From contig JASSKH010000009.1 of the NCBI GenBank assembly GCA_031763025.1, forward strand, positions 9,221,922 to 9,285,921: DNA of 64,000 nucleotides. The letters run 5' to 3'. Both the position numbers and the translations under genes were made by a program. The DNA comes from Macrocystis pyrifera. Lineage: Eukaryota; Sar; Phaeophyceae; Laminariales; Laminariaceae. Under the pieces are notes generated by a model. The model was not told where the DNA came from. It made no database searches and saw only the letters and a program-made list of their open reading frames with translations. Shown here one piece after another: positions 44,289 to 60,497 of this stretch (positions are counted from its first letter, which is position 1; each line of letters begins with the position of its first letter).

Positions 44289-44741
44289 ATGTGCTCTCTA
44301 CGCGGTGCTCTGATGTCCACATCGAGGCCCTGGCGGCCGGTGTACGCGTATGCCTGTTACTGCCTGCTCCCCCTCTCTTTAGCCCTGCGTCCGGTCGTCC
44401 GCACCGCCTTCAGCGGACCTCCTACGACTGCGACTCGATCGCGATCTGCACGATGCTTCACCAGCGGACGGCTGGGCTGGCATCATGGGTCATCGTCATC
44501 ATCGGCCTTGCGGTCAGCCGCAACGGGCTCCACGTCTGATTCTTCTCCGAGGAGGCTCCGGAGCCGACTGGAGTGCGCACCACTGGCTAGTGGATTCCTT
44601 GGCGACGCCTCCGCGTTGTTTGTGGACTGTGCCCGAGATTTCTCGAGCCAGAGAGCAGCCAGAAGAAGAGGGGCAGGCAGAGGAGGAGGAGCGCTGGCTA
44701 TGGGAAAAGGGCTAGACAGGAAGAAGGCCAAGAAATCGCAG
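44289..44741 (+). CDS. Exon 1: presequence and linker
   Basis: Starts [12 protein letters not shown]; the second Met, at codon 9, is an alternative. Codons about 18-33 are hydrophobic ([15 protein letters not shown]), followed by [10 protein letters not shown] hydrophobic signal peptide then a Phe near the cleavage site is the plastid-import pattern of algae with secondary red plastids. The rest is Ser/Arg/Ala-rich, ending [13 protein letters not shown] at a GT donor. The donor GTGCTG is weak, so this exon's link to exon 2 is less certain than the later ones. Confidence 0.55.
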
Positions 44742-45232
44742 GTGCTGCACATGCCGAGACACGGCTCAGGAGATACAGCAGTAGTAAGACTACAGCAGTA
44801 GTAGCATGCAGACATATCGTAACAGAGTTCGAGTATTTGTCGGGTCCAAGGTTTGAACTGCTGAAGCTACCACCGGTACTGCTGTAGCACGACTTGCGTT
44901 ACCTGCTGGTGGTGAGCTTTTTGGGCCCATCTGTTCGGGTCACCATGAGTGTTTCTGGCCCCAACCTGACTTTCCCAGCATCAGAGCGGCAGGGTTGTGG
45001 GGTATCTCAATCGCGACAGCAGCAGTCACTTGCTGTGGAGTCGAGGTCACCCCCGTGTTGGTGTCATTGTTGGTGTTGTGGTTGGTAGTGGAGGTAGTGG
45101 AGGTTGCTGGTGGTGTCGGTGCCGGTGGTGCTGGTGGTGTCCACGCATCGCCTCTCATATCTCTACCGTACCGTGTGACCACGAGCACCACCCGGTCGAG
45201 ATGCAACGTCAATGGAGCATCTGCGACAACGA

Positions 45233-45264
<32 letters not shown>

Positions 45265-48200
45265 GCCGCTGTAGAGTGGCAGAGCCCGTCCGAATGCCGT
45301 TCGTTGCATTTGAATCGCAGCAGCTCCCACCAGCACCACCACCAGGACCTACATTACCAAGTAGACAAAACTAAACAACCATCGCTTTGCTGGCAGACTC
45401 GCACCAACAAGGCTACGACATCTTCACCTACACATGACCTACGTACGCCCCAGGTATGCAGAACATGATACATCCAAGAGCAAATAAACATCACAGCTCT
45501 CCATTTGCGAGTTCATTGCAGCAAGACGGTATCCCAAAACAGACAGTACCCGTCCTGCTCCGTGACCTCATTGTCGTGCGTACCCCGTCCCGCGTTGTCC
45601 TTCTCCCCCCTGATGCCCCTCAATTGTCTTGGCGGGGGGGGGCTTGCTTCATGTTCGTGCATTCATTCACTCGCAGGCTCGCGCGGGGGAGGGCAAGGGC
45701 GCGGCGTCTTCCCCTGCCACCGCCGCTTCCTTGAGCGCCGCGGGGGCGCCTGGGCAGCATATCTCTGTCCAGGATATCGCGAGCAAGGAGGGTTTCTTGG
45801 AGGCGTTCGAGCAGTACCGCAAGGCGAAGGCACCGAGGAAGGTCTTCCAGGTAGCTATGATATTGATGCAACGAGTGGCCAGCCCCGGTGTAGGCTTCCG
45901 TGTCACATCATGCGAAATACGAGAGTTTTGCAACAGTAGTACTGCAGACAGAGTAAAAGTACGGCGCAAAGGGATCGACTACCGACTTCCTGGTACGGTG
46001 TACTTGTATTGTAGAACGAAACGGGTGTGATACGACCGAAGAAGAGCTACTGTTGCGGGGGATCATAGTAAATAGGACCTACAGTACACACTAAAACCTA
46101 TATATTTTACCTATATTTACTGACAATATTCGGTCCAATTTAGTATAGTCCCCCGTAGTACCTGGTATATATGTACCTGGTCCCAGTACTGGCTGGTATG
46201 TATACCAGGTATACCAGTACCGGTACATGTTTTGATCGGGGCCCGGTAAACGTTAAAAGGAAACGGTAAGTGGTAAACGGAAACGGTAAACGGTGAACAA
46301 AAGACAAGGGTACGTATATAGCTCTCGCTTCGTGCGAAGGAAGTCGAATTTAGTGCGCTGGTGGAAAACAGTAAACAAAAACAAGTTTCGTATGTATACC
46401 TGGTATGTATTGATAGCAGTAGTGGTCCTTCTGTACCTGGTATATATATGGGGCCGGTTGAGCCGCTGCTGTGGTGCTGGCTGCCCGCTATAGTGCGTGT
46501 GTAAATCGCTTGGCGCGGATGGGATTAATCAATGTGGTAAGAGTGTGCGGAGTATATAGTGCCGGTTTGCTTCCATGGTGCCGGTATTGGTGGCTGGCGC
46601 ATATACACCGGCACTGTAAAGAGGGAGACTGTTGCTACGTATCGTATGCCGGTATCATATGCAATGTTGTTTCCGAGACATTCGATCGGACAGCGTCGCA
46701 GATCTCCCGCCGGCCTGACGTTTTCTACCGCACAAGATAGGATCTGGGGCTTCAGTCGTCTAGCTGAATGAAAAAAAGTCCCCTCGATTTTTTTGGCAGC
46801 CCTGCGAAAGCAGCAACTCGGACAGATCACCGGTTCCCACTTGATGATCTAGATCTCTCAGGGCAGAAAGATATTTCGGGGGACCTAGAGTAAATAGGAC
46901 CAAATATTGTTAGTAAAAATAGGTAAATATATAGGTTTGTTTGTGTGTACCGTATGTCCTATTTACTATGGTCCCCCGTAATAGATAGATCCCTGATTTG
47001 TATGATCTATTTTTGCGGGGTGGAACCCGTGTAATCTACAGTACATGGTCTAGCGCACGTTCCCCCCGTGTTGGATATGTACCACGTAAGCACAGATTAT
47101 GTGCAACCTCTCATAACGGCAAGTGAGGGACTAGATCATGTTATATACTGTAGATAGATAGATCATGATCTGTCCAAGGTGCGCGGAAGTACTGTAGCAA
47201 CTCGCTTCTGGAAGTCGAGGCCACTGACCGTCACCCCTGACCCCACCCACCCACCCACCCTCCCACCCACCCCCGGACCTACCCCCCCGGACCTACATCG
47301 TGTACCACCGCCGTTGTCGCGCACCACCGCCGTATCACATAATGCGTGTTCTGCGGCGTGCAAGCAGGCGTTCGAGACCGCGAAGAAGAAAAATACGGAG
47401 GGGTTGACCGATTTGGCGTCGGCGGCAGTGAAGGCAGAGCTGAAGCTCAGCAGAGAAGATCTCGCCAGGGGCATAATCGACTCTCTTGGGTGAGCTCCAC
47501 ATTGCCACTAGTGCTGTGTATTGAATCAATGATGCTACGGTAAGTGTATTATTAAAGGGATCAGTGTATATTTATGCTATTTTTGCTGAAATAAATTATG
47601 CCAGTACCTGGTGTGGCGGTTATGGGGTGAAATTATGTCATTTTTAGGTCTTGATTTTTTATGAGTTACCAGGTATTTAATTGTGTTTAGTCGACGGAGT
47701 GGGTATGCGTTGAACTTAACTATTTTTCGAGGTCTTGTGAATTTTTTACGAAATTCCGGGTATTTGATTGTTTTCTGCCGATGAAGGTACATTCTTCAGA
47801 ACAAGCCTAGAATACATGAACCAACACACCTCACTAATCTCTTACAACCAACCACGGACTATTCTCGGGAGTGTTCCCTGTTTCTAATGATTTCCTTCAT
47901 GAATGAAGGTAAGAAAAATGAGACACGATAGGTCACTGCTGTAGGAGACCGCGGTTTTGGCCCTTTGACTGGCCGCCTCTGCACTAAAACTACTGTAGTA
48001 TATTAAAGCCAAAGGAGACCTTGAGGTGCCACCAAAAAAAGGTGTCCTAACATATATGCCCGCCCCCTACACTAAAACTAGTATATTAATGCCAAGGGAG
48101 GCCTTGACGCGCCACAAACAGCCCGGTCTCTTTATCATATGTGCCCGCCCCCTACACTAAAACTGGTATATTAGAGCCAAAGGAGGCTCTGACGCGCCCT

Positions 48201-51200
48201 AAAAGACCGGTCTCGTACGTAACATATTCATTTTGCCCGTCACCTGCACTAAAGCTGGGTACGAGTATTGAAGCCGAATGAGGCCCTAACGCGTCCAGAA
48301 GGACCGGTCTCCTATCATATTTGCCCGCCCCCTGCACTAAACCTAGTATAATATGTCCCCATACACTAAAACAAGTATAATATGTCCCCCTACACTAAAA
48401 ATATTGTATAATATGTCCCCTTGGGGACTTCAGAGGGGGGAAAAATTGTCCATAAAGAGTGACGATTACAGCGACGGCCAGCCATTGCGTGATTTGGAGG
48501 ATGACACCGATTGAGACTGGTGGGTGTCCGAGTTACGATGCGAAGGATTCGAACCGAACCGAACCGAACCGAAACCACGGGCGCAACGCTATCCTATAGA
48601 TTACCCGTGCTTCTGAGCCCCATTCTCGATGTGCTCTTATCATCAATAGACGGTTTGATAACACAAAAAAAAAAAACTCGTCGTTTTTTTTGTCGCTGTC
48701 TCGGGGTTTCCAAAAGCGCTGCTTAACCCCATTTAGGACTACTGCGGTCCCGTTTGGAGGACAAATTACTTGGAATTTGACTGGTTTGTCCCCAGCCCTT
48801 AAGGACTGCGGTACTACTAATAGAAGGGTTAAGCAGGCCTTGCCCTTAAGGACTGCAGTAGTCCCGTTTTCGGGACAAACTAGTTAGAATTTGACTGGTT
48901 TGTCCCCAAACAGGACTACTGCAGTTTGCCCTCAAAGGTTTTAGCCCTTTACGACTGCACCACTGTTCCCATTTTGGACACAATCTACTTGGAATTAATG
49001 CAGACGGAATTATGTGTTTTGAGAGCAGTGCGGTAGTCAAAAGGGAAGGTCATTGGCATCTCAGCGCATAAACCAAACCCTAAAATTCGTTTCCTCTGTT
49101 TTAAAGGGTGGAGCAGTGGGATGCCTGGCTGGCCGAAGACCTGGAGGGGGCGCAGACGGTGATCCGGTGCGCGTGCGCCGCGAGCGAGCCCGCCCTCGCG
49201 GAGGAGCTGATCGTCAAAGCGGGATTTTCGTGCGGTGTCGTGGACGAGCTCACGGGGGTGAGAGAGCTCGTGAGAGGACATACCTACATGATCGAGTCCC
49301 GACGACAGACACATCCATGTGTATATACATATGCCCCTCCCTTGAATATAGTTATATACCGCGTTGAACATAGTATAGTTTTTGGAGTAGGGGCATATAT
49401 GTCGTAGGGGATGAGTGTAGCGCGCTCTCAAGGTTTTTTTGCCGAGTTAAGGGCTTTTGCCGCTGCCCAACCCATTAAGGACCGCAGTCCCGTTTTGGAA
49501 CAAAAAAAAAAAACACGGGTTAACCCTCTTGCTGCTGCAAAAATGACTCTAGTCATCTCCAAACAATGTGGGTGCGGTTTTGAAGGGGTTAACGTTTCGG
49601 CGGTAGAAGTGCCGGGTTTTCGGTTTTTCATGTCCCCTTCCGGTACGATGGTATGGTATTACACCGTCTACCCTTTTTTTTACTGCGTTGCAATGTCCAG
49701 CAGCAGTACCTCTACTGCCCTGTCGTAGTTTTGCGACCACAGAGAGAGCTTGTATCTTCTCTAGGACGAAGAATCGGCACGGACACTGGGTGTGCTGGAT
49801 GTCGGCGGGAAAAAAAAAAAAAAACAAAGAAACAGTTTACTGTGCGTGTGAACACACACAGGTATTCGGTACCGTTGTCCCACGTACAGGCTTTTCTTGC
49901 AGCACGGGGGGGAGTAAGTGACGGGTAATGTCCCCCGTCCTCGGCAACAACGACACCGCCGATGACGCACGCGTCTCCCACCGAATGAGAATGCCAGGGT
50001 TCAGCGTTATAACCCTCTCCGGGTTGTAGTGTTCGGGTAATAGAGAGAAAAAAAAAAACTGACGATACAAATTGACGACTACAGCAACCATTGTAGCCGC
50101 TGCGTCGTTGGGGGATGATTCAGATTGATGTCCGAGTGACACCGCTAGGAGTCGTACGGCGCGGGCGCAACGTGACCCTCTATGTACCCGTACTGTGCTG
50201 CTGGGCGCTCACGCTGCTGCTCGTAGATGGTTGATAACAACACCAAGAGTTACCAACCGTTGTTTTGGTCGCTACCCCGGAGCCCCAAAAGGTGGTACAA
50301 CACCAAACACGCCTCTTTTTTTTTGTGCTGTGCAGTCGCCGCCGGGCGCTTCCCTGATGAACGGTTGCTGCGTCAGTTTTTGCTTTTTGTATTTAACACT
50401 ATTTATAGCACGTCAAAGGCATTGATTTGATTTTACGACGTACCGGGTACAATGTGTTGATCTGGTCGCGCTCTCCTCCGCCTTACGGGCGCTTGATACA
50501 ACCATTGTTCTTGACTTTTCAAGACCGTGTGAATATTCATTTTAATATCCGAACCGGCCTGCATATTTTTTGCTGCGGTTAGAGTGGTTACATACGAAGC
50601 ATGTCATTACTGTTGAGCCAATTTTTCCCCGCTTGTCTGACCATTTTTCATCGCCGCTGCACTGCTCAGCTGTACGTCCCGTCCGCCGTTTTTTTGATCG
50701 AGCAGGACTTTGCCGCGGCCGCTACGTCAGTATACCCCAACCTCATCACGGCCTACTCGCGGAAGGGCAGGCGCGTCGACACCTTGCGCTTGATGGAGGA
50801 GGTGGCGAACGCGCGGGTAAGCAGGACGTACAGACACACGTGGCCCTCCCCTCCCCTCCCCCTCCCCTCCCCTCCCCTCCCCTCCCCTCTCCTCCTCTCC
50901 TCTCCGCCCGTACCCGTCTATGGCTAAAACAACCAGGTTTAGTACCCAGGTATATACACTGTTGATATACTGTATTACGGGGGTCCATAGTTAATAGGAC
51001 CTATGGTTTACATAAAAACCTATATATTTACCTATTTTTACTAACAATATTTGGTCCTATTTACTATGGTTCCCCGTAATAGTACGTTATGTATTGTCTA
51101 CTAAAGACACCCTTGCAATGGTGATCGCCGCGTCGAACTGCTCACTCTTTTGCCCGAATGGCCTCTACCGCTCGCAGATACCGATAAAGACCGCCGCTGC

Positions 51201-54200
51201 CAACCGCTTGCTTCAGGGTTTCCACAAGAGGCGAGACCTCGAGGCGGTGTTCAAGGTGGGACACGGGGCGAGAATGAGAACTGGCATGATGCTCTTCCAT
51301 GTGTTTCGAAGTGCAGGCGTTGCATGTTTACGGTTTCGTCCCCGGGAAATTTGCTTCACTTCACTCGTGTTACCCCCCCCCGCCCACCCTCCCCGTAGTC
51401 TACTGCTCTGTGGAAATAATAAACAGTTCCTTCTGTGAATGCCCAACGTTGGGTTCTGTGGCGCCTAATTGCAAGCGCAAGGATAAATAACTCTCGATTC
51501 CGCCTGGGCTTGCTATCTTTACTGATGGCGACTTTTCACAAGTAAGCTCGCCCGACGTATGACGCAGCTGTGCAAAAATTGAGTTTCGACTACTCAATGG
51601 GCCGTACTCGCAGCTGGCGTATTTTTCAACTGCTGTGTTTCACACCTGGGACAGATCATGATACCAGAGTAAATAGGACCTACGGTGCACACAAAAAAAA
51701 GTTTATTTACCTATTTTTACCAACACTATTTGGTCCTATTTACTATGGTCCCCCGTAGAATATTAATGCAGTAGATCATTTTAAGTTCCTCGTTTGCCGC
51801 TGTGAGGAGAGGTTGTTCAAACAGATCCAGCTCGGGAGAATACATGTGCTTTCGAGAGGATGCAGAATATATAGGTCCAACCCGGCAACTTGAGCATACG
51901 GTACATCCTACCAACATACAGTAGATCCTACAAACATCGGGAATATATGAAGAGGTCCGCCCTGAAAGGTCTGCTGCAGATCGTCTCAGGCGTGGAAATC
52001 GATGAATCTAGTTGTCTCAGGCGTGAACTGAACTGTTTCTTCATCCTAGCTGAGAATTGTCGAGGTACGAGAAAAAATGTGTGTTTGTACGCACGGGAGA
52101 AGTTGACCAATCAGATCAACACGGGTTTTGTTTGTTTGTACCCGGATACCTATCTAGTCTATGAGTGCACCCGGGACCAGTTCTGCTGTAGCAGTTGACT
52201 CGCGATCGAGACGACGCAGCGACTCCGGGTCTTCAAGACGGGAGTAAGGTGCGGTAAAGACTGGTTTTGGCTTGCTTGGGACTGGTAGGAGCTGCTGTCC
52301 TTCTTCGCTGCTCGGCTTCTCGCTGGCGTTGGCCTTTCGGGATTACGTACTGCTGCCGTTGGTTGCGATGGTTGATGTCCCGCAAGTTCGGCATTCGCTA
52401 CGTACAGGGCTGTGACTATTATATTATTAAGGCGTGCCTTGGCTCGACTTGTCGACTAGGTATTGGTTGGATGGCAAACGCAAGCCAACTAACCCCGACT
52501 TTTAACACTCTAGACGGAAATATAAGGATCTCGTAGACGTTAACATGGAGACGAATCGGCCCTTATATTTCCGTCAAGAATAGTATACACAGTGGTTTCG
52601 TCAATAGAATACTCGCTTTCGAGCCTCAAAACACGCTCAAGTCAGATACTGTTTGTCGATTATGCTCGGTAACACGACACTTAGATAGAGGAGTTCCATG
52701 CTGGATAGGGATTCTGGTGGTGGGATTTTATTAGGAGGTCAGGATAATGTGCGAGCCTACCGATGACACTCGTTGTAGCTCCTTGGGAATAATACAAGAG
52801 AGAGAGTTCCGTGCTACTATCTTGAGTCACCAACCGCGCGTTCCCGTGCCAGCTTCGTCTATACCTATAGAGATCGATCAAACACACTATTACGGGGGCG
52901 CATAGTAAATAGGACCTACGGTACACACAAAAACCTGTATATTTACCTATTTTTAGTAACAAGATTTGGTCCTATTTACTATGGCCCCCCCCGTAACAGG
53001 GAATGCCGGGGATCTTCTATTGTTGAGCGCAGCCACGGCCATCCTAGAGGGGGAGTCAGTTCTGCGTCTTCAGCTCATGCCAGGTTACGAGGACGCTGGC
53101 ACGGATAACGAAAACGGGGAGCACGTTTTAGAAGATATAAAACTGCCCAAGCTACAGGTAGCGACCCAGAAACGTTAGAGAGAGATCGGGCTCACATGGG
53201 GCGAGTTCGATCTCTCCCTGAAGCGCCTGGGTCGCTATCTGTATAGCTCGAGCAGTTTTTCTCTCTTCTAAAATGTAGTCCGCGCTTTCGTGCTCCGTGC
53301 CAGCATCCTCGTGACCCGACTTGAGCCGGAGACGCAGAACCCTCCCCTCTGGGATCCCCTCCAGGATGGCCGTGGCCGTGGCCGCGCTGACGATCAACAG
53401 ATACGCAAAAGACGCAGAAATTCCGCAAAAAATAGCCGAACGCAACTATCTACAATGCCTAAATATAAACATAGAGCCAACTATATTAAATATTCAGTCG
53501 GCTACTTGCGCTAAAATAGTCAGCCAACTCAGAGCCCTGCTTGTAACATTTCCCGGAAACGAAACGCTGTCTCATTTACGAAACCCTCTCTTTGCGAGAG
53601 CAGGTATACGGAGAGAGCGACCTCAGCAATGAGGGAGTGCAGGTAGTTGTCATCATCAGCTGTCTATTCCGGGAGCAACATACCGTCGTATTGCTCGGAA
53701 CCAAACGTGGTACGCGGTGGATTAAATAGGGGGGGGGGGGGGGGGGGGGGAGCATGGTATTTGGGCCCATCGTGGGTCCTGATTTAGTTGTGAAGGCGCA
53801 GGCAGCAAGCAGTACGTACGTACGAGTAGAAAAAAAGAAGAAGGAAGGTACATAGACCCCCAAAAATCGCGTCTGCGATCGATCTGCATTCGGGGTGTGG
53901 CTTTTTTGCCGTTAAATAACTTCAAAATGCAACACTCTCGGTGTATACACGGCCGCGTGAGTGCCCGGGGGGTCGGATCATCAACTGGACGTACATCGTA
54001 AGGATCGTTTAGCCTCCGTATTACTGGCTGAACGCGCCTTATACTTCCGGCCAGAGTGGTACCTGGAAACCCTGGCATGTTTTTTTTTTTTTGGCGGTTT
54101 CGCGCCCCCCAATATTGCAGAATCTTATATATGTATGTATGTATTTATGTATGTATGTATGTATGTATGTATGTATGTATGTATACGCGTATGTTGTGTG

Positions 54201-57200
54201 AGCACCGCCGTTCTGCGACGGGGACTGCGGGTAGCGTTGCCACCAAGCCTCCTATCGATGCAGACATCCTACTCGCTTCTGCCGACGACATCCCGAACCC
54301 CACGGCCCCCGTTGACAAGCCGGCTTGCGCGCACGTTGGTGGGGTGGCAGCGCAAGCCGCTCCCCGCCATGCACCCCTCCTCGAAGAACGACGACGATTC
54401 CTCCGCCGTTCGAGGAGCCCCAAGGAGATTTTCGGGCTTTCACGTCGGCGGTGGTTGTGTTCCTTTCGGCAGTGGCTGTAGGCCGATGTTTTTGCTTCTT
54501 AAATGTGTATATATATATATATATATATAACGCTTGCCGCGACGACCAGCGAATATTTCCGTTGGCACCGACCGCTGCTGTTGCGTGAAAGATCGTCACG
54601 ACGGCGTATGATACAGATGTGAGGCATCGCGCTCGTCATCTGCTCTACAATGCCGAACGTATGATCGCGGTATGTATGTATGCATCATATGCCCATTCAA
54701 CCTACTACCTGGTATGTAGCAAGCAATCCACAATACTATCAATAGCTACGTAGATAGATAGAATGTAGTCAGGGGGGCGGGAACGCTACATTTTTACCGC
54801 AGTAAGAGGGAGTGCAAAATCATGTTGCTGCACGTCCGTCGCACGACTCGTTGCGTTATTATCAGAGACTGGTATAATATATTTGTACCGCAAAAAAGAT
54901 GGAGTGCAGAATAATGTTGCTGCGCGTGTGTCGCACGACTCGTTGCGTTGGCGGCTTTTGGTGAAGCCCGACAGCCCGGGCAGGCTGCTTTTTGGTCTGG
55001 CAGCCGATGCCGTAATCGTCATTTTGGTTTTCGTCCTTATTTTTCTTTATTTTTTCTCTCTGAAACCTCAGTGTACGGGTATCATGAGGGCTGGATACTG
55101 GCTCGCTCAGTCAGTAGCGATTATACTGTTGTCAAAATCAATCAGTATTCTGGATTGCAGCAGTACACTGTGTAGCCTCTCCAATATCTCCCGAAACGTA
55201 GTTAGTGGGTTTCCGTACTATAATTCGGCGTGTTTCTCGGGCGTACGCTGGATGGCAACTACCTGGTTCTGGTTAATTACAGGCCAGGTTAATCAGTAAA
55301 TTACTATTGCGAGTACCTATTGCTGTGCCGGTGCCCAGCCCTAGGTATCATAAGGTTTCGTTCACTGTGTCGACAAGTTGAGTATCAACCACCCGATCAG
55401 TCGAACTCAACAGCTGGCGCACATAAATTTGCGTAAGTTTTATAAAAAATTGTTGCCTGGTGGGTACGCACGTACGTATGAACGATGGCCAATTTTCTCA
55501 CGCACAGACGGTTTGCGACCTCCATTGCTTCCTTCGTGCGCGCCAGCCAGCCAGTAGAGTGCCGCTAACGTTGTACGTACCAGAAATGACCGCGCGTTTT
55601 TCTCACCACTATCGATCGTACCACTCTTGTCTCCAAAAACATACAGGGACTGCAGTTGTATATTAATATTATATCCAAACGTTCCTTATATTTTAGGAGA
55701 AAGTGGAAATCGTACCTGGTACGATTTTTTTTTTCTATCCTCCAGATCCGTCAGGCGGATGACAATATTAATAGTACGTAGCACTATTACAGGGGTCCAT
55801 AGTAAATAGGACCTACGGTACACACAAAAACCGATATATTTCCCTATTTTTACTATTAATAACAATATTTGGTCCTATTTACTATGTTCCCGCGTAAGTA
55901 GGAAATATCATTATGTACGGGGGACCATACTAAATAGGACCTACGGCACACACACAAAAAAAACCTATACATTTACCTATTGTTATTGACAATATTTGGT
56001 CCTATTTACTACGGTCCCCCGTAATAGTAGTATGTCTGGACGAAAATGTAAAGACCATACCGTTGGTTGCTGTTGTTCTCACGCTAAATTAACCCTTTCA
56101 GGACTGCAATTCCCGTGATTGAGACAAGTTACTTGGAGTTTGACTGCTTCGTCCCCGAAACGGAACTGCGTTCCTAAAAAGATTGACTCATCGCCAAAAA
56201 TAAAAAATCTATTAATAGTCGGTGGTCACGGGATGGCACCAGCACAGGACAGGCTCTCCGAAAAAAAAAAGTCTGGAGGGGAAGAATGCCTCAGGAAAAA
56301 AAATAAACAAAAAAAAAAGAGTGAAAATACAAAGCAGTAGAATACGATTCGACATCGTAAACTGCGGCACTTCGTACACCTACGAATGTCACTCGGCGTA
56401 TAGATACATCTCAACTACCTGACGGTCCTTATATTTCCGTCCGAAGTATATATATATATATATATAATGTAGGTTCAGACCGCAGTCTTGTTGTGCGGAC
56501 GAAACACTTGGAATTAGAGTCAGATTCAGGTACACGTACACTGCACTACTATTTACGGGGGACCACAGTAAATAGGACTTACGGTACACACACTTCCTTC
56601 CTTCCTTCCTTCTATTCTATTCTACATCATCTGTGTTGTATATATGTCAAAGTTGTACGTACAGCCCGGTTGTTGGGGTAGAGCGCAACGTTGCTGCCGC
56701 GGCATGGAGGGGTGGTACAGACGGCAGAGGTCTGTATCATGGCAAGTTTTTGACAAAGCATTGCCAAAGGGAGGGGGCTTCTCAACTGAGGGACTATGCA
56801 CCCTTTTTTTCCCCCTCCTTTCCGTTTATTTTCCTCGCCCTACTCTCCCGCTCCCTCCCACTATTACAGGGGACCATAGTAAATGCGACCTGCGATACAC
56901 ACTAAAACCTATATATTTCCCTATTTTTGCCAACAGTATTTGGTCCTATTTACTATGGTCCACCGTAATAGTATAGCTAAAATCCGGGATCGAATAGCGG
57001 GCGCTCCTGCCCCCACCTCCCCAGTATGGCTCGTGCCTTGATTTTTATCCAATTTCGCTTGTTTTTTTTACAAATATTTTTCGATATACTTATAAAGACC
57101 TCCCGATAGGCCATATTAAGATTATGCTCGTCGCGTTAATGAAGCGTACGGTGTACCACTTTTGTCCCGAAATATAGAGATCATTTTTACACTAACATTC

Positions 57201-59322
57201 AATACACTCGGCCGTTGTATTTTGGGACAGGATGACACTAAAGAGCTCCTCAAGCGAGGAGCCTTCGTAAACAAAATTTATATATTTTGGTGCCTTTCGA
57301 AAATAATATTTGGTGCACTCTTATCGTTGCACGCATGTACTGCTGTGTCTCGCGTATGTCGTGTATGCCGTGTGGGGCATGTGCAATCATTCCCGGCTCT
57401 TGGCTGACGCCGAAGGGCAACGAACGTGCTGCGCGGCCGCGGCCCGGGAATTAACTCCGCCCCGCCGCCGCTGCCGCCGCCGCTGCCGCCGCCGCGTCGC
57501 CGTGTGTCAGGTGTTGGACGTCATGGCAGCGGCGGGTGTGGACGGGGACGACGAAACGTACGAGTGGCTCGCCAACGCGGCCGTCAGGGGAGTGGACTTT
57601 GTCACGGTGAGTGCCTTACTCCTCCCCTGCTGTATGCACCACCTCGGGCTGGAATGTGAGGACCGATTGGGTTTGGTGTCTATACCCCAAGGGTCCTTAC
57701 ATTTCCGTCGAGAGTGGTGACGGCTGTATTTGTTTTTTTTTTTTCTGTTTTTTTTTTTTTCCCCTTTGGGTGCCGTTTTCTGTGCTACTCCTGCTTCTGC
57801 TGCTGGTACGATCGACTGCAACAACTATGAACTGTGTATCCATCGCACCTCGGATAGGCAGATCATCTATAGATCATCCCCGCTTATTAGATGATCTACA
57901 TCTTTCAGGACAGATAGGTAGATAGATAGATAGATATCCCTGATCCGTATGGTCCGTGTGATCTGTATGGTATGTATAATCTGTATGATCGGTATGATCT
58001 AGCTCGTGTTGCTGGATAGGAGCCGTATGATCTGCATCATCTGAATATCGTATGTGTCCTGCATGGGATCTGTACTGTACACAGATCCTGCACAACCTCT
58101 CACAACGGCAGGTGATGAACTACAGTAGATGATTTAGATCATGATCTATCTGTAGATGATCTGTCCGAAGTCCGAGGTGTGGACTACTGTATATACAACT
58201 GTGGACCAACAGTGGACGACTCCATTGGTTTCATGTATTTTTATTTCTCATGTAGGTTTTAGATTATTTCACTTGACACACGCATGCCTATATATGTGTG
58301 ATGGCCATCACCCATGTATGAAATGCATGCGCACTTGTGCATCGAAGAACGAGCACAACAAAGCATATCCGGCCATGGCTGCCTGGGGCGAGGAGAGTGA
58401 CCCCCTCCCCGGTTGCCTGCCTCCGCCTCCGCCACATTGTACCCCGATTGTAGTCAATTCCCGTGTCAGCTGAAACATAGCAGGGTGTGTTATTTATTAT
58501 ATTGTCAGTCGGGCATGTGCAATATCTCTTTATTTTACTTCCCTGTCGGGCCCTTTCTCTTATGAGGAGGCCGGCCGGTAGCGCACAGTCAGTAGTACCG
58601 GTACTCTCATAAGAAGTTGGGGTGCTGGCCCCCAGGCTAGATTTATTCTTCATGAAAATGTGTGTTTGCATTGCCCCGAAAATGTCAGGCTGAGTTTCTT
58701 GTGGGGATGCTTCTCATGAGAGGACCGATAGTGCACAGCAGTCAGTAGTACCGGTCTTCTAATAAGAAACTGGGGTGCTGGACCAGGCCAAATTTATAAT
58801 TCAAGAAAGGGTGTGTTCCATAATTAGTTCAGAATAACCGCTACCGAATATCTAATTTACCGGGGCATGTCAGGCTGAGTTTCTTCTGGGACTATATTAC
58901 TTGTGAGAGGACCGGCCGGTACAGTTAGTAGTACCGGTCCTCTAATAAGAAAATGTGAAGCTTGCCCAGGCTAGATTTCTTACAGAAGAAAGGGTGCATT
59001 CCATACTATATACATTCAAGCATAGCTGCTCCCGAATTTCTTATCTCCCCTGAATTCTCAGTCTGAATTTCTTGTGGGGCTCTTGCTTAGGAGGGGGGGC
59101 CGGTAGTGTATGCGTCTTTTTCGTCTGGCGCATGCTCGCTCGATGTGACCTCGCCTTTTTTTTTTTCCATGTTCGGCTCCTCTGCTGTATATATATATAT
59201 AATATCAGGGCGCGGTGAGCATGGCAACCCTTCCCAAGGAGCCGGTGCTGCCGGAAGCCGCGTTTATCGGCAGGAGCAACGTCGGCAAGAGCAGCCTCAT
59301 CAATATGGTTTGCAACAGAAAG
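44289..59322 (+). CDS. Plastid-targeted PPR-EngB GTPase fusion, eight exons, 3' end not in window
   Basis: Proposed exons: 44289-44741, 45677-45850, 47368-47489, 49107-49257, 50706-50816, 51178-51255, 57511-57606, 59209-59322. Every junction keeps phase; exon 3 ends two bases into a Gly codon and exon 4 supplies the third. Donors are GTGCTG, GTAGCT, GTGAGC, GTGAGA, GTAAGC, GTGGGA, GTGAGT and GTGCGG; all acceptors end in AG, the best being TTTTAAAG and CTCGCAG. The product is at least 433 residues: signal-peptide-like N-terminus with TAF motif, basic and Ala-rich linker, helical region, two 35-residue PPR motifs, and the beginning of an EngB/YihA GTPase. PPR domains bind organellar RNA; EngB proteins assist large ribosomal subunit assembly. 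A plastid ribosome role is inference. The G2-G5 motifs must lie on later exons, which I could not find before 64000. Confidence 0.72.
45677..45850 (+). CDS. Exon 2: Ala-rich segment and a helix
   Basis: 58 codons after acceptor TTCACTCGCAG. Ala/Gly/Ser-rich start, then [20 protein letters not shown], a likely helix. Donor CCAG|GTAGCT. The frame is well ordered compared with random frames around it. Confidence 0.6.
46052..46158. mobile_element. MITE family M, copy 6 (intron 2)
   Basis: GCGGGGGATCATAGTAAATA ... TAGTATAGTCCCCCGTAGTA. Both ends carry substitutions, so it is an older copy. Confidence 0.8.
46820..47180 (+). repeat. GATC-rich repeat F, copy 1, split by MITE copy 7
   Basis: TTGATGATCTAGATCTCTCA, then after the MITE GATAGATCCCTGATTTGTAT, and later TGTGCAACCTCTCATAACGG and GATCATGATCTGTCC. 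The same order of blocks occurs at 57850-58190 without a MITE. Confidence 0.75.
46873..46983. mobile_element. MITE family M, copy 7 (intron 2)
   Basis: ATTTCGGGGGACCTAGAGTA ... ATGGTCCCCCGTAATAG; core in reverse orientation. Inserted in repeat F. Confidence 0.85.
47368..47489 (+). CDS. Exon 3: helical region
   Basis: [20 protein letters not shown] ... [13 protein letters not shown]; strongly helical, Ala/Lys/Glu-rich. Donor CTTGG|GTGAGC leaves two bases of a Gly codon. The acceptor (GTGCAAGCAG) has a poor pyrimidine tract, so the 5' edge may lie a little upstream. Confidence 0.65.
47975..48420. repeat. Tandem repeat of 84-91 bp in intron 3
   Basis: TGCCCGCCCCCTACACTAAA begins units at about 48057, 48142, 48233 and 48321, with an older one at 47975. 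Three short units with TATAATATGTCCCC(A/C/T) follow. Confidence 0.75.
48730..49000. mobile_element. Palindromic element family P, copies 2-4 (intron 3)
   Basis: Three successive copies: 48730-48812, 48842-48935 and a half copy 48945-49000. Each has GGACTGCGGTC- or GACTGCAGTAGTCC-type ends and the core GGACAAA(C/T)TA(G/C)TT(G/A)GAATTTGACTGGTTTGTCCCC. Confidence 0.7.
49107..49257 (+). CDS. Exon 4: helical repeat-like region
   Basis: Acceptor CCTCTGTTTTAAAG is strong. The exon gives [40 protein letters not shown] and [10 protein letters not shown]: paired helices like a degenerate PPR-type repeat. Donor GGGG|GTGAGA. The first base completes the Gly codon begun in exon 3. Confidence 0.72.
49446..49500. 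mobile_element. Palindromic element family P, half copy (intron 4)
   Basis: CCCATTAAGGACCGCAGTCC then CGTTTTGGAAC; the second half is missing. Confidence 0.55.
50706..50816 (+). CDS. Exon 5: first clear PPR motif
   Basis: 37 codons between acceptor GATCGAGCAG and donor [32 protein letters not shown] followed by LMEEVANAR is the two-helix signature of a PPR (helix A with Y.NLI.AY...G, helix B with A/T..LF.EM). The last residues of the 35-residue motif (IPIKT) come from exon 6. Confidence 0.82.
50972..51082. mobile_element. MITE family M, copy 8 (intron 5)
   Basis: TATTACGGGGGTCCATAGTT ... ACTATGGTTCCCCGTAATAG. It makes up nearly a third of this 361-bp intron. Confidence 0.9.
51178..51255 (+). 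CDS. Exon 6: helix A of the second PPR
   Basis: 26 codons after acceptor [33 protein letters not shown] then LEAVFK, donor CAAG|GTGGGA. Joined to exon 7 ([20 protein letters not shown]) it makes a full 35-residue PPR. Confidence 0.78.
51660..51758. mobile_element. MITE family M, copy 9, left end lost (intron 6)
   Basis: Starts within the arm at AGAGTAAATAGGACC; right end ATGGTCCCCCGTAGAA. Confidence 0.75.
52513..52575. repeat. Short inverted pair GACGGAAATATAAGG (intron 6)
   Basis: GACGGAAATATAAGG and its exact complement CCTTATATTTCCGTC enclose 33 bases. CCTTATATTTCCGTC or close forms recur singly at about 56425 and 57695. Confidence 0.7.
52888..52997. mobile_element. MITE family M, copy 10 (intron 6)
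   Basis: TATTACGGGGGCGCATAGTA ... ACTATGGCCCCCCCCGTAAC. Confidence 0.9.
52998..53445. repeat. Inverted pair of exon-like sequences (intron 6)
   Basis: The plus strand at 53020-53175 reads [20 protein letters not shown] ... [11 protein letters not shown]. The minus strand at 53445-53190 reads [20 protein letters not shown] ... [15 protein letters not shown]. They are clearly related at protein level ([26 protein letters not shown]) and face each other across about 40 bases. The shared sequence keeps an open frame in both, so it was coding once. Function unknown. Confidence 0.55.
53726..53750. repeat. G tract (intron 6)
   Basis: About 24 G with no interruption; its length may be unreliable in the assembly. 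Confidence 0.8.
54125..54185. repeat. GTAT microsatellite (intron 6)
   Basis: (GTAT)n, about 14 units with one change. An (AT)n run follows at 54508-54530. Confidence 0.9.
55376..55445. repeat. S block, solitary copy (intron 6)
   Basis: AAGTTGAGTATCAACCACCC ... CAGTCGAACTCAACAGCTGG, as in the foldback complex at 17.5-18.6 kb. Another decayed copy lies at 51553-51620. Confidence 0.65.
55784..56027. mobile_element. MITE family M, copies 11 and 12, side by side (intron 6)
   Basis: Copy 11 spans 55784-55897 (right end CCCGCGTAA) and copy 12 spans 55914-56027, in the same orientation, 16 bases apart. Confidence 0.9.
56092..56180. mobile_element. Palindromic element family P, copy (intron 6)
   Basis: CCCTTTCAGGACTGCAATTC ... 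GTCCCCGAAACGGAACTGCG with core ACAAGTTACTTGGAGTTTGAC. A half copy lies at 56471-56520. Confidence 0.65.
56549..56592. mobile_element. MITE family M, copy 13, left half only (intron 6)
   Basis: CTATTTACGGGGGACCACAG to GTACACACAC, then an unrelated CTTC repeat. Confidence 0.8.
56862..56971. mobile_element. MITE family M, copy 14 (intron 6)
   Basis: TATTACAGGGGACCATAGTA ... CTATGGTCCACCGTAATAG. Confidence 0.9.
57511..57606 (+). CDS. Exon 7: second PPR and first strand of the GTPase
   Basis: 32 codons: [20 protein letters not shown] then [12 protein letters not shown], donor CACG|GTGAGT (consensus). [17 protein letters not shown] is helix B and the start of the next helix A of a PPR. The end, VDFVT, runs on into GAVSMATLP of exon 8 and fits the first beta strand of EngB proteins (family pattern F/IVxSAxxxxxLP). 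Confidence 0.8.
57850..58190 (+). repeat. GATC-rich repeat F, copy 2 (intron 7)
   Basis: TTAGATGATCTACATCTTTC, CACAGATCCTGCACAACCTC and GATCATGATCTATCTGTAGA. There is no MITE at the place where copy 1 has one. Confidence 0.75.
58562..59105. repeat. Tandem repeat of 154-188 bp in intron 7
   Basis: Units begin at about 58564, 58718, 58906 and (partial) 59090. Each has GAGAGGACCGG ... AGTAGTACCGGTCCTCTAAT, a local inverted pair, followed by CAGGCTGAGTTTCTT. Confidence 0.8.
59209..59322 (+). CDS. Exon 8: EngB/YihA GTPase P-loop
   Basis: 38 codons after acceptor [33 protein letters not shown], then [12 protein letters not shown], then MVCNRK at donor [22 protein letters not shown] is the G1 motif (GxxxxGKS) in the exact form used by the EngB/YihA/YsxC family. 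[19 protein letters not shown] and the following xxNRK match the family in order and spacing. The exon ends where the conserved LA-xTS-xxPGxT (G2) segment should come next; that segment is not in the next 4.7 kb by eye. Confidence 0.87.
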
Positions 59323-59849: not shown

Positions 59850-60106
59850 CTAACTCATTGAAGCTGTCATCCATATGCAAGTCCGCCTCACAAGCGGTTC
59901 TTAGTAGGATGCAGCTCACCCTTCATGCGACTCGCCGGACACCTCACGGCGCTTCGCGCTTGGTGCAAGCAATGTCTGCCTGGTCGGTGAAAACCCGACA
60001 TGCTCCGTCCCGGCATTGTAGGGATGCGAGGGTCTATGGTCATACGACTACGGCCATGCATGAGATCGAGTACATCTCTCCTATCGAGTACACCCCCCCC
60101 CCCCTG
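59850..60106 (+). repeat. E repeat, long copy 2, with C-run end
   Basis: Nearly identical to 14339-14592. A C tract of about 19 lies just before it (59827-59845) and a C run just after the GAGTACA end (60090-60102). Confidence 0.85.
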
Positions 60107-60302: not shown

Positions 60303-60397
60303 AAACCCCGCCTCACGAGCGGTTCTTGGTAGGGTGCACCTCACCCCTCTTGCGACTCGCCGAGCACCTCGCGGCGTTTCGCGCTTTTGGTGCAAGC
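60303..60397 (+). repeat. E repeat, copy 3, running into the assembly gap
   Basis: CCTCACGAGCGGTTCTTGGT ... GCGTTTCGCGCTTTTGGTGC, diverged from the other two copies. It stops at the first N. Confidence 0.75.
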
Positions 60398-60497
60398 NNN
60401 NNNNNNNNNNNNNNNNNNNNNNNNNNNNNNNNNNNNNNNNNNNNNNNNNNNNNNNNNNNNNNNNNNNNNNNNNNNNNNNNNNNNNNNNNNNNNNNNN
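60398..60497. other. Assembly gap, 100 N
   Basis: Exactly 100 unknown bases, the usual placeholder size; the true length is unknown. It falls inside a dispersed repeat, which probably broke the assembly. Confidence 0.99.

Follow-up and report, generated by a model that had tools for sequence, protein, structure and literature searches.

The 64,000-nucleotide stretch of Macrocystis pyrifera DNA analysed here (the window; GenBank assembly GCA_031763025.1, contig JASSKH010000009.1, positions 9,221,922 to 9,285,921 of the forward strand) contains a nuclear gene that, by its sequence, is the counterpart of Ectocarpus YihA4: a GTPase of the EngB/YihA/YsxC family carrying an N-terminal α-solenoid of the pentatricopeptide repeat (PPR) type. 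Eight exons splice in phase into an uninterrupted frame of 433 codons. Every intron between them is bounded by GT-AG (7/7), and GC at third codon positions reaches 0.753 in the joined exons, compared to an overall GC of 0.446–0.551 in the introns. Proteins of Ascophyllum, Scytosiphon and Ectocarpus (P0001, P0003 and P0006) used as tblastn queries match all eight exons colinearly from the region of the start methionine, while the more distant Chrysoparadoxa query (P0008) matches at the last three exons only. Exon 8 is the best conserved, with 95–97% identity to the brown-algal proteins. The eight short, phase-matched exons proposed in an earlier note on this DNA are thus confirmed in their coordinates, splice sites and open frame. 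Two separate genes joined by a chance splice are ruled out by the three brown-algal relatives that match the exons in order, and also by 17 transcript-labelled relatives that carry both parts in one frame. We conclude that a single protein joining a PPR-type arm to EngB is almost certainly a real fusion.

All exons lie on the forward strand. Exon 1 (44289–44741) encodes the start methionine, a hydrophobic presequence, a low-complexity stretch and a conserved segment; it was placed by tblastn and by similar starts in relatives. Exon 2 (45677–45850) carries a linker and the region of the first solenoid helix (KAPRKVFQ), as assigned by tblastn and from the helices of a predicted Ectocarpus structure. 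Exons 3 (47368–47489) and 4 (49107–49257), both found by tblastn, encode degenerate PPR-type helices. The bulk of the first 35-residue PPR unit (50724 to 51189) lies in exon 5 (50706–50816; Pfam and tblastn), and exon 6 (51178–51255) adds the end of this unit and residues 1–22 of the second (Pfam PPR_2 at 343–386). PPR unit 2 (51190–51255 plus 57511–57549) has N at position 5 and D at position 35. Its remainder is encoded by exon 7 (57511–57606) which, according to the Ectocarpus model, continues with the next PPR-type helix and the first β-strand of EngB (VDFVT). Exon 8 (59209–59322; YsxC profile and tblastn) holds the N-terminal part of EngB, including the G1/P-loop GRSNVGKSS at 59269–59295, and ends with NRK.

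The arm is recognizable as PPR-type, and its repeats are of uneven quality. Pfam PPR_2 matches residues 343–386 of the window protein with E 8.3e-7 and 29.5 bits, just below the cut-off of 30, and reaches 32.8 bits in the Ectocarpus relative. The two PPR units stand in exact 35-residue register. The earlier description of two textbook motifs holds for this register but only in part for their residues: by the PPR code, unit 2 is canonical (N5/D35), whereas a hand count gives P5/K35 for unit 1. The Ectocarpus model also features a longer solenoid than two units would form, with 12 helices at 214–413.

The EngB part begins immediately behind the arm. TIGR03598 (YsxC) matches residues 392–433 of the window protein with E 5e-11 and 42.6 bits; this 42-residue fragment stays under the cut-off of 124.45 because the rest of EngB is missing. 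Pfam MMR_HSR1 matches at 412–432 (E 5.8e-5, 23.6 bits; cut-off 21.9). Of the motifs G1, G3 and G4, the window protein contains G1 only. Six relatives were scored against the curated YsxC equivalog (brown YihA4, brown YihA5, two red algae, one diatom and one cryptophyte), and 6/6 passed its 124.45 bits with 125.9–181.9. Predicted structures of relatives show the EngB fold and a helical solenoid that runs directly into EngB strand 1; in the Ectocarpus model, helix 403–413 is followed by strand 417–423. In line with this, exon 7 in the alignment completes PPR unit 2 and continues through the following helix to EngB strand 1 (FVT before GAVSM), and exon 8 begins at GAVSM. An mRNA starting at the exon 8 methionine would therefore lack the first EngB strand. 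A separate EngB transcript from this methionine, which the earlier note had named as a case that would undo the fusion, is thus unlikely as judged from the exon boundaries. All relatives with MMETSP transcript labels (17/17) have at least 187 residues before G1 in one open frame (G1 at 188–479), and all 17 contain G1, G3 and G4 by loose patterns.

PPR-EngB fusions are widespread in red-lineage algae and form one group. Three protein searches, each scoring about 8,000 candidates and listing the best 120 at most, returned 91, 365 and 412 relatives. The relative whose record has an informative name, 'YihA4, YihA/EngB-like GTPase' (Ectocarpus siliculosus, P0006), is 75% identical to the query across 69% of its length and bears the precomputed Pfam labels PPR_2, MMR_HSR1 and PF23276. 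The G1 pattern occurs in 271/276 records, at residue 200 or later in 237/271 and before residue 150 in 20/271. The records with an early G1 speak against both parts always belonging to one gene, but are probably partial models; they include P0012, an Ectocarpus record of 284 residues on a contig of about 10 kb that starts within the PPR part. Among the matches listed are sequences of Ascophyllum, Scytosiphon, Ectocarpus, Chrysoparadoxa, Tribonema (short), Heterosigma (short), Gracilariopsis, Agarophyton, Gracilaria, Porphyridium, Pyropia (short), Hanusia, Diacronema, Prymnesium, Aureococcus, Chrysophaeum, Fistulifera, Cylindrotheca, Corethron, Pyrodinium and Amorphochlora. The earlier note knew of no described protein with this join. 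The kelp gene is not one of a kind: it belongs to a widespread family, whose Ectocarpus records are named YihA4 and YihA5. In two environmental records, P0056 and P0190, EngB relatives have a different partner domain, carrying Pfam PF02037 (SAP) besides MMR_HSR1.

A maximum-likelihood tree of 55 EngB domains separates 32 algal rows from 22 bacterial rows plus one further kelp locus (C189) with support of 100/95. This unrooted tree was built from rows picked among the search matches, plants and green algae being outside its sample, and its long rows (Pyrodinium, L077, L072 and kelp C189) are unsurely placed. Two groups make up the algal rows: one is YihA5-like, and the larger one combines YihA4 with red algae, diatoms, cryptophytes, haptophytes and pelagophytes. 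P0204 of the chlorarachniophyte Amorphochlora amoebiformis falls into the YihA5-like group and gives no Pfam PPR match at E≤0.01; the chlorarachniophyte plastid is of green origin. A scan gave at least 80 bacterial EngB loci, by title largely from alphaproteobacteria and Bacteroidota; in 73 of the 80 listed the match begins no earlier than query residue 287 (EngB itself begins near 302–306), and in seven it begins further upstream (L037, L038, L039, L042, L053, L093 and L097). Sequence comparison of the arms indicates that they are homologous in red and brown algae, cryptophytes, haptophytes and pelagophytes, with the diatom arms very divergent. Weak comparisons were also obtained for pico31 arms (environmental and unplaced records) against YihA5 arms (9.6%) and for the single Pyrodinium arm (24–74%); the single Amorphochlora arm gave 34% against brown, 24% against YihA5 and 95% against red-algal arms.

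EngB breaks off after about 42 residues in the window, and a search of the 64.6 kb downstream of the window revealed no exon beyond NRK. Searches of the whole assembly (537,376,219 bases in 223 contigs, best candidates scored) likewise did not find the later exons. The C-terminal part of the Ascophyllum protein matched only paralogues, whereas the full protein recovered the eight known exons; since the weakest of these, a 30-residue match, was still recovered at E 0.0016, an overlooked conserved exon is unlikely. With the 3′ half of the gene not found in the assembly, the window alone does not establish a complete fusion; the fusion proposed earlier is borne out here to the extent that the start of EngB with G1 follows the PPR units. 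A scaffold gap of 100 N (60398–60497) lies 1.08 kb downstream of exon 8, and the simplest reading is that the 3′ half was probably lost there. Alternatively, the kelp copy could be truly truncated, its 3′ half deleted and the gene dying or encoding a short PPR protein, as the failure to find an exon past NRK in 537 Mb might suggest. We consider this improbable, given the adjacent gap, the intact frame and splice sites, and the fact that exon 8, nearest to the break, is the most conserved. A 79-bp direct repeat (59883–59961 and 60308–60386, 87% identical) ends just left of the gap and may have broken the assembly there. Separately, introns of the gene contain a recurrent, short element resembling a miniature inverted-repeat transposable element, with inverted ends GGTCCTATTTACTATGGTCCC and 93–99 bp between its outer ends. 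The ends have 23 matches with at most 3 mismatches and none in shuffled sequence; copies lie at 46059–46152, 50981–51073, 51660–51752, 52896–52988, 55793–55891, 55921–56018, 56870–56962 and elsewhere in the window.

The kelp genome contains further EngB-like loci. By its sequence, one is a second PPR-EngB gene, YihA5, on the reverse strand of contig C211 (about 11157507–11162130; loci L026 and L027). Its partial model matches Ectocarpus YihA5 (P0181) with 73% identity and features a PPR unit (hand-counted as N5/D35), the motifs G1, G3 and G4 (the last reading TKCD), and the C-terminal part. Two EngB-like loci, also on the reverse strand, are an intron-free 244-residue open reading frame on contig C189 (L028; 2605211–2605795) and a multi-exon gene on contig C203 (L029; around 5056559–5060850); both are possible mitochondrial EngB genes.

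The starts of the relatives bear on where the family works. We applied a crude rule, a hydrophobic core followed by an A-x-A-like motif before F/W/Y (strict form: AxA directly before F/W/Y), and assigned the relatives to types by junction patterns. Such a start occurs in 56/167 methionine-starting relatives, compared to a shuffled mean of 10.4 and maximum of 20, with some of the matches falling inside mature sequence. The count is 33/62 for the diatom type (shuffled mean 4.3, maximum 10) and 21/73 for other types (mean 4.8, maximum 9). Plastid-type starts are thus common among diatom-type relatives, but the kelp presequence, proposed earlier to be plastid-type, does not pass the strict form of the rule. 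The 'TAF' of this presequence is ruled out as a cleavage site, being unconserved among brown algae. Brown-algal relatives with the same start instead conserve LLP[L/M]S-x-[A/S]-[L/M]-R. The conserved kelp site resembles SLA followed by LRP, the first residue after the cut being L or M among brown algae, and could by its sequence perhaps be a weaker form of the AxA-type plastid signal.

We think it probable that the PPR-EngB family works in the plastid. A mitochondrial role for the kelp protein would agree with the negative motif test in the window protein and with the bacterial loci, largely from alphaproteobacteria and Bacteroidota. It would also fit Arabidopsis, whose EngB proteins go to both organelles according to PMC4263083. 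We nevertheless rate a mitochondrial location as quite unlikely: diatom-type starts are plastid-type far above shuffles, and the two further EngB-like kelp loci could serve mitochondria. The named algae of the tree, moreover, are plastid-bearing.

Bacillus YsxC offers a model for what such a protein might do. According to PMC12560758, it occupies the uL2 site of a 44.5S particle, contacts H33, H34, H35a, H52, H55 and H58, and blocks H66; binding brings order to its N-terminal region, and all its contacts to the particle are to RNA. By analogy, we consider it moderately probable that the kelp YihA4-type protein is a plastid YsxC-like placeholder for uL2 with an rRNA-gripping arm. YihA4 would do in the stroma of the plastid what EngB does in bacteria: its GTP form would fill the uL2 site of the immature large subunit, keep the local 23S rRNA helices near-mature and delay the closing helix, and GTP hydrolysis would let the protein depart and uL2 enter. 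Since the arm grows from the N-terminus, which in Bacillus YsxC takes on order when bound to the particle, it would start at the particle. Continuing from there, it could clamp nearby single-stranded or unfolded rRNA and so give a small GTPase a larger, more specific grip. A role in ribosome assembly follows from the EngB part, with all six relatives tested passing the YsxC cut-off. For the role in plastid ribosome assembly suggested earlier, the plastid is thus likely and the assembly function follows from EngB, with the qualification that the kelp EngB body was not found.

Several results pull against a plastid rRNA-gripping placeholder. The EngB body was found neither in the window nor in the assembly, so that a functional kelp protein has to be deduced from its relatives, and we found no experiment on an algal member. 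The strict AxA test finds nothing in the window protein, and red-type relatives have such a start in 2/32, the shuffled level (mean 1.8, maximum 5); red algae would not be expected to need a bipartite presequence. The predicted structures give no measure of how firmly arm and EngB hold together. Diatom arms are weak in the arm comparison (42% against brown, at most 8% against four other sets; 0.4–42% over all five), a diatom-dominated arm profile matched no PPR chain, and a diatom model in Foldseek gave no PPR chain among the 50 matches listed. VIA-align of the model says nothing on the fold of the arm, because its rows were all taken by GTPases. As the diatom arms lack a PPR match, RNA reading by the PPR code cannot be general.

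Whether the arm reads sequence is a narrower question. In the PPR code, N5 with D35 or N35 prefers pyrimidines, and N5/D35 is also the usual PPR consensus. The last PPR unit has N5/D35 in 50/201 scored proteins (window included), and 82/201 pair N5 with either D or N at position 35; the N5/D35 count falls to 0–3 when the register is slid by 1–4 positions. These 201 come from 277 sequences, the other 76 being off the scoring pattern and the diatom rows out of register. As this pair is also the usual consensus, its conservation need not mean a conserved RNA base. Sequence-specific reading of RNA by the arm, judged from its repeats, is therefore doubtful in our view. Equally speculative is a specific version of it, in which the last unit would read a pyrimidine in a single-stranded part of the still immature 23S rRNA of the plastid, next to the uL2 site, and restrict the GTPase to the right precursor, making an RNA-guided placeholder since red algae with two specialised brown-algal copies. 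Somewhat less unlikely is an arm that forms a degenerate structural or protein-binding solenoid, through which the GTPase would dock on ribosomal proteins or some other factor with no RNA sequence being read. Only the last unit is canonical, PPR_2 narrowly misses its cut-off in the window protein and stays below it in 6/6 relatives giving PPR_2 in a further Pfam scan, and the diatom arms lack a PPR sequence match. This picture has to contend with N5 and D or N at 35 in red, brown and cryptophyte proteins among those 82, and with the RNA-only contacts of YsxC in the text of PMC12560758. Very unlikely, finally, is an action on plastid mRNA (for example rpl2 stability or translation) with EngB as a nucleotide switch and not an assembly factor. 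PPR proteins commonly act on organellar mRNAs, but the EngB part of the relatives passes the YsxC equivalog cut-off and the arm has few canonical units for reading mRNA.

Comparison with known systems helps to place the algal family. Ectocarpus YihA4 (P0006) and YihA5 (P0181) have the same order of parts as the kelp genes; their records are full-length, whereas kelp YihA4 is cut at the gap, and their names mention EngB only, the PPR part being present solely as precomputed Pfam labels. Bacterial EngB/YihA/YsxC proteins (3pqc, 1svi and 9p38) share the GTPase domain, fold and motifs with the algal proteins, but their solved chains, from free-living bacteria, have about 195 residues and no helical arm. 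Chloroplast P-type PPR proteins (PPR10 and designed PPRs) share the 35-residue helix pairs and the canonical last unit. Unlike theirs, the algal arm has few, mostly degenerate units and is joined to a GTPase. The trypanosome mt-EngB (6yxy chain EQ) is likewise an EngB of an organelle that has large extensions and sits on a precursor of the large subunit, but it is mitochondrial, and only its GTPase part aligned with the model (386–630). PPR proteins of plant mitoribosomes (mL102/rPPR5 and others) place PPR solenoids on organellar ribosomes; these are ribosome components that lack a GTPase domain. Among the titles and abstract openings listed (at most 20 per search), with subscription literature mostly outside the search, we found no paper on a PPR-EngB fusion, and the words 'pentatricopeptide', 'Ectocarpus' and 'stramenopile' are absent from an EngB evolution paper (PMC4263083). 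The parts and the protein are already in databases under an EngB name.

Kelp YihA4 shows how half a gene can vanish at an assembly gap. EngB is normally a small one-domain factor, and here it occurs with a fused arm of an RNA-binding type from red algae to kelps. This fusion points to a plastid-specific steering of a widespread ribosome-assembly GTPase, and makes assembly of the plastid large subunit in the red lineage directly testable in diatoms and Ectocarpus.
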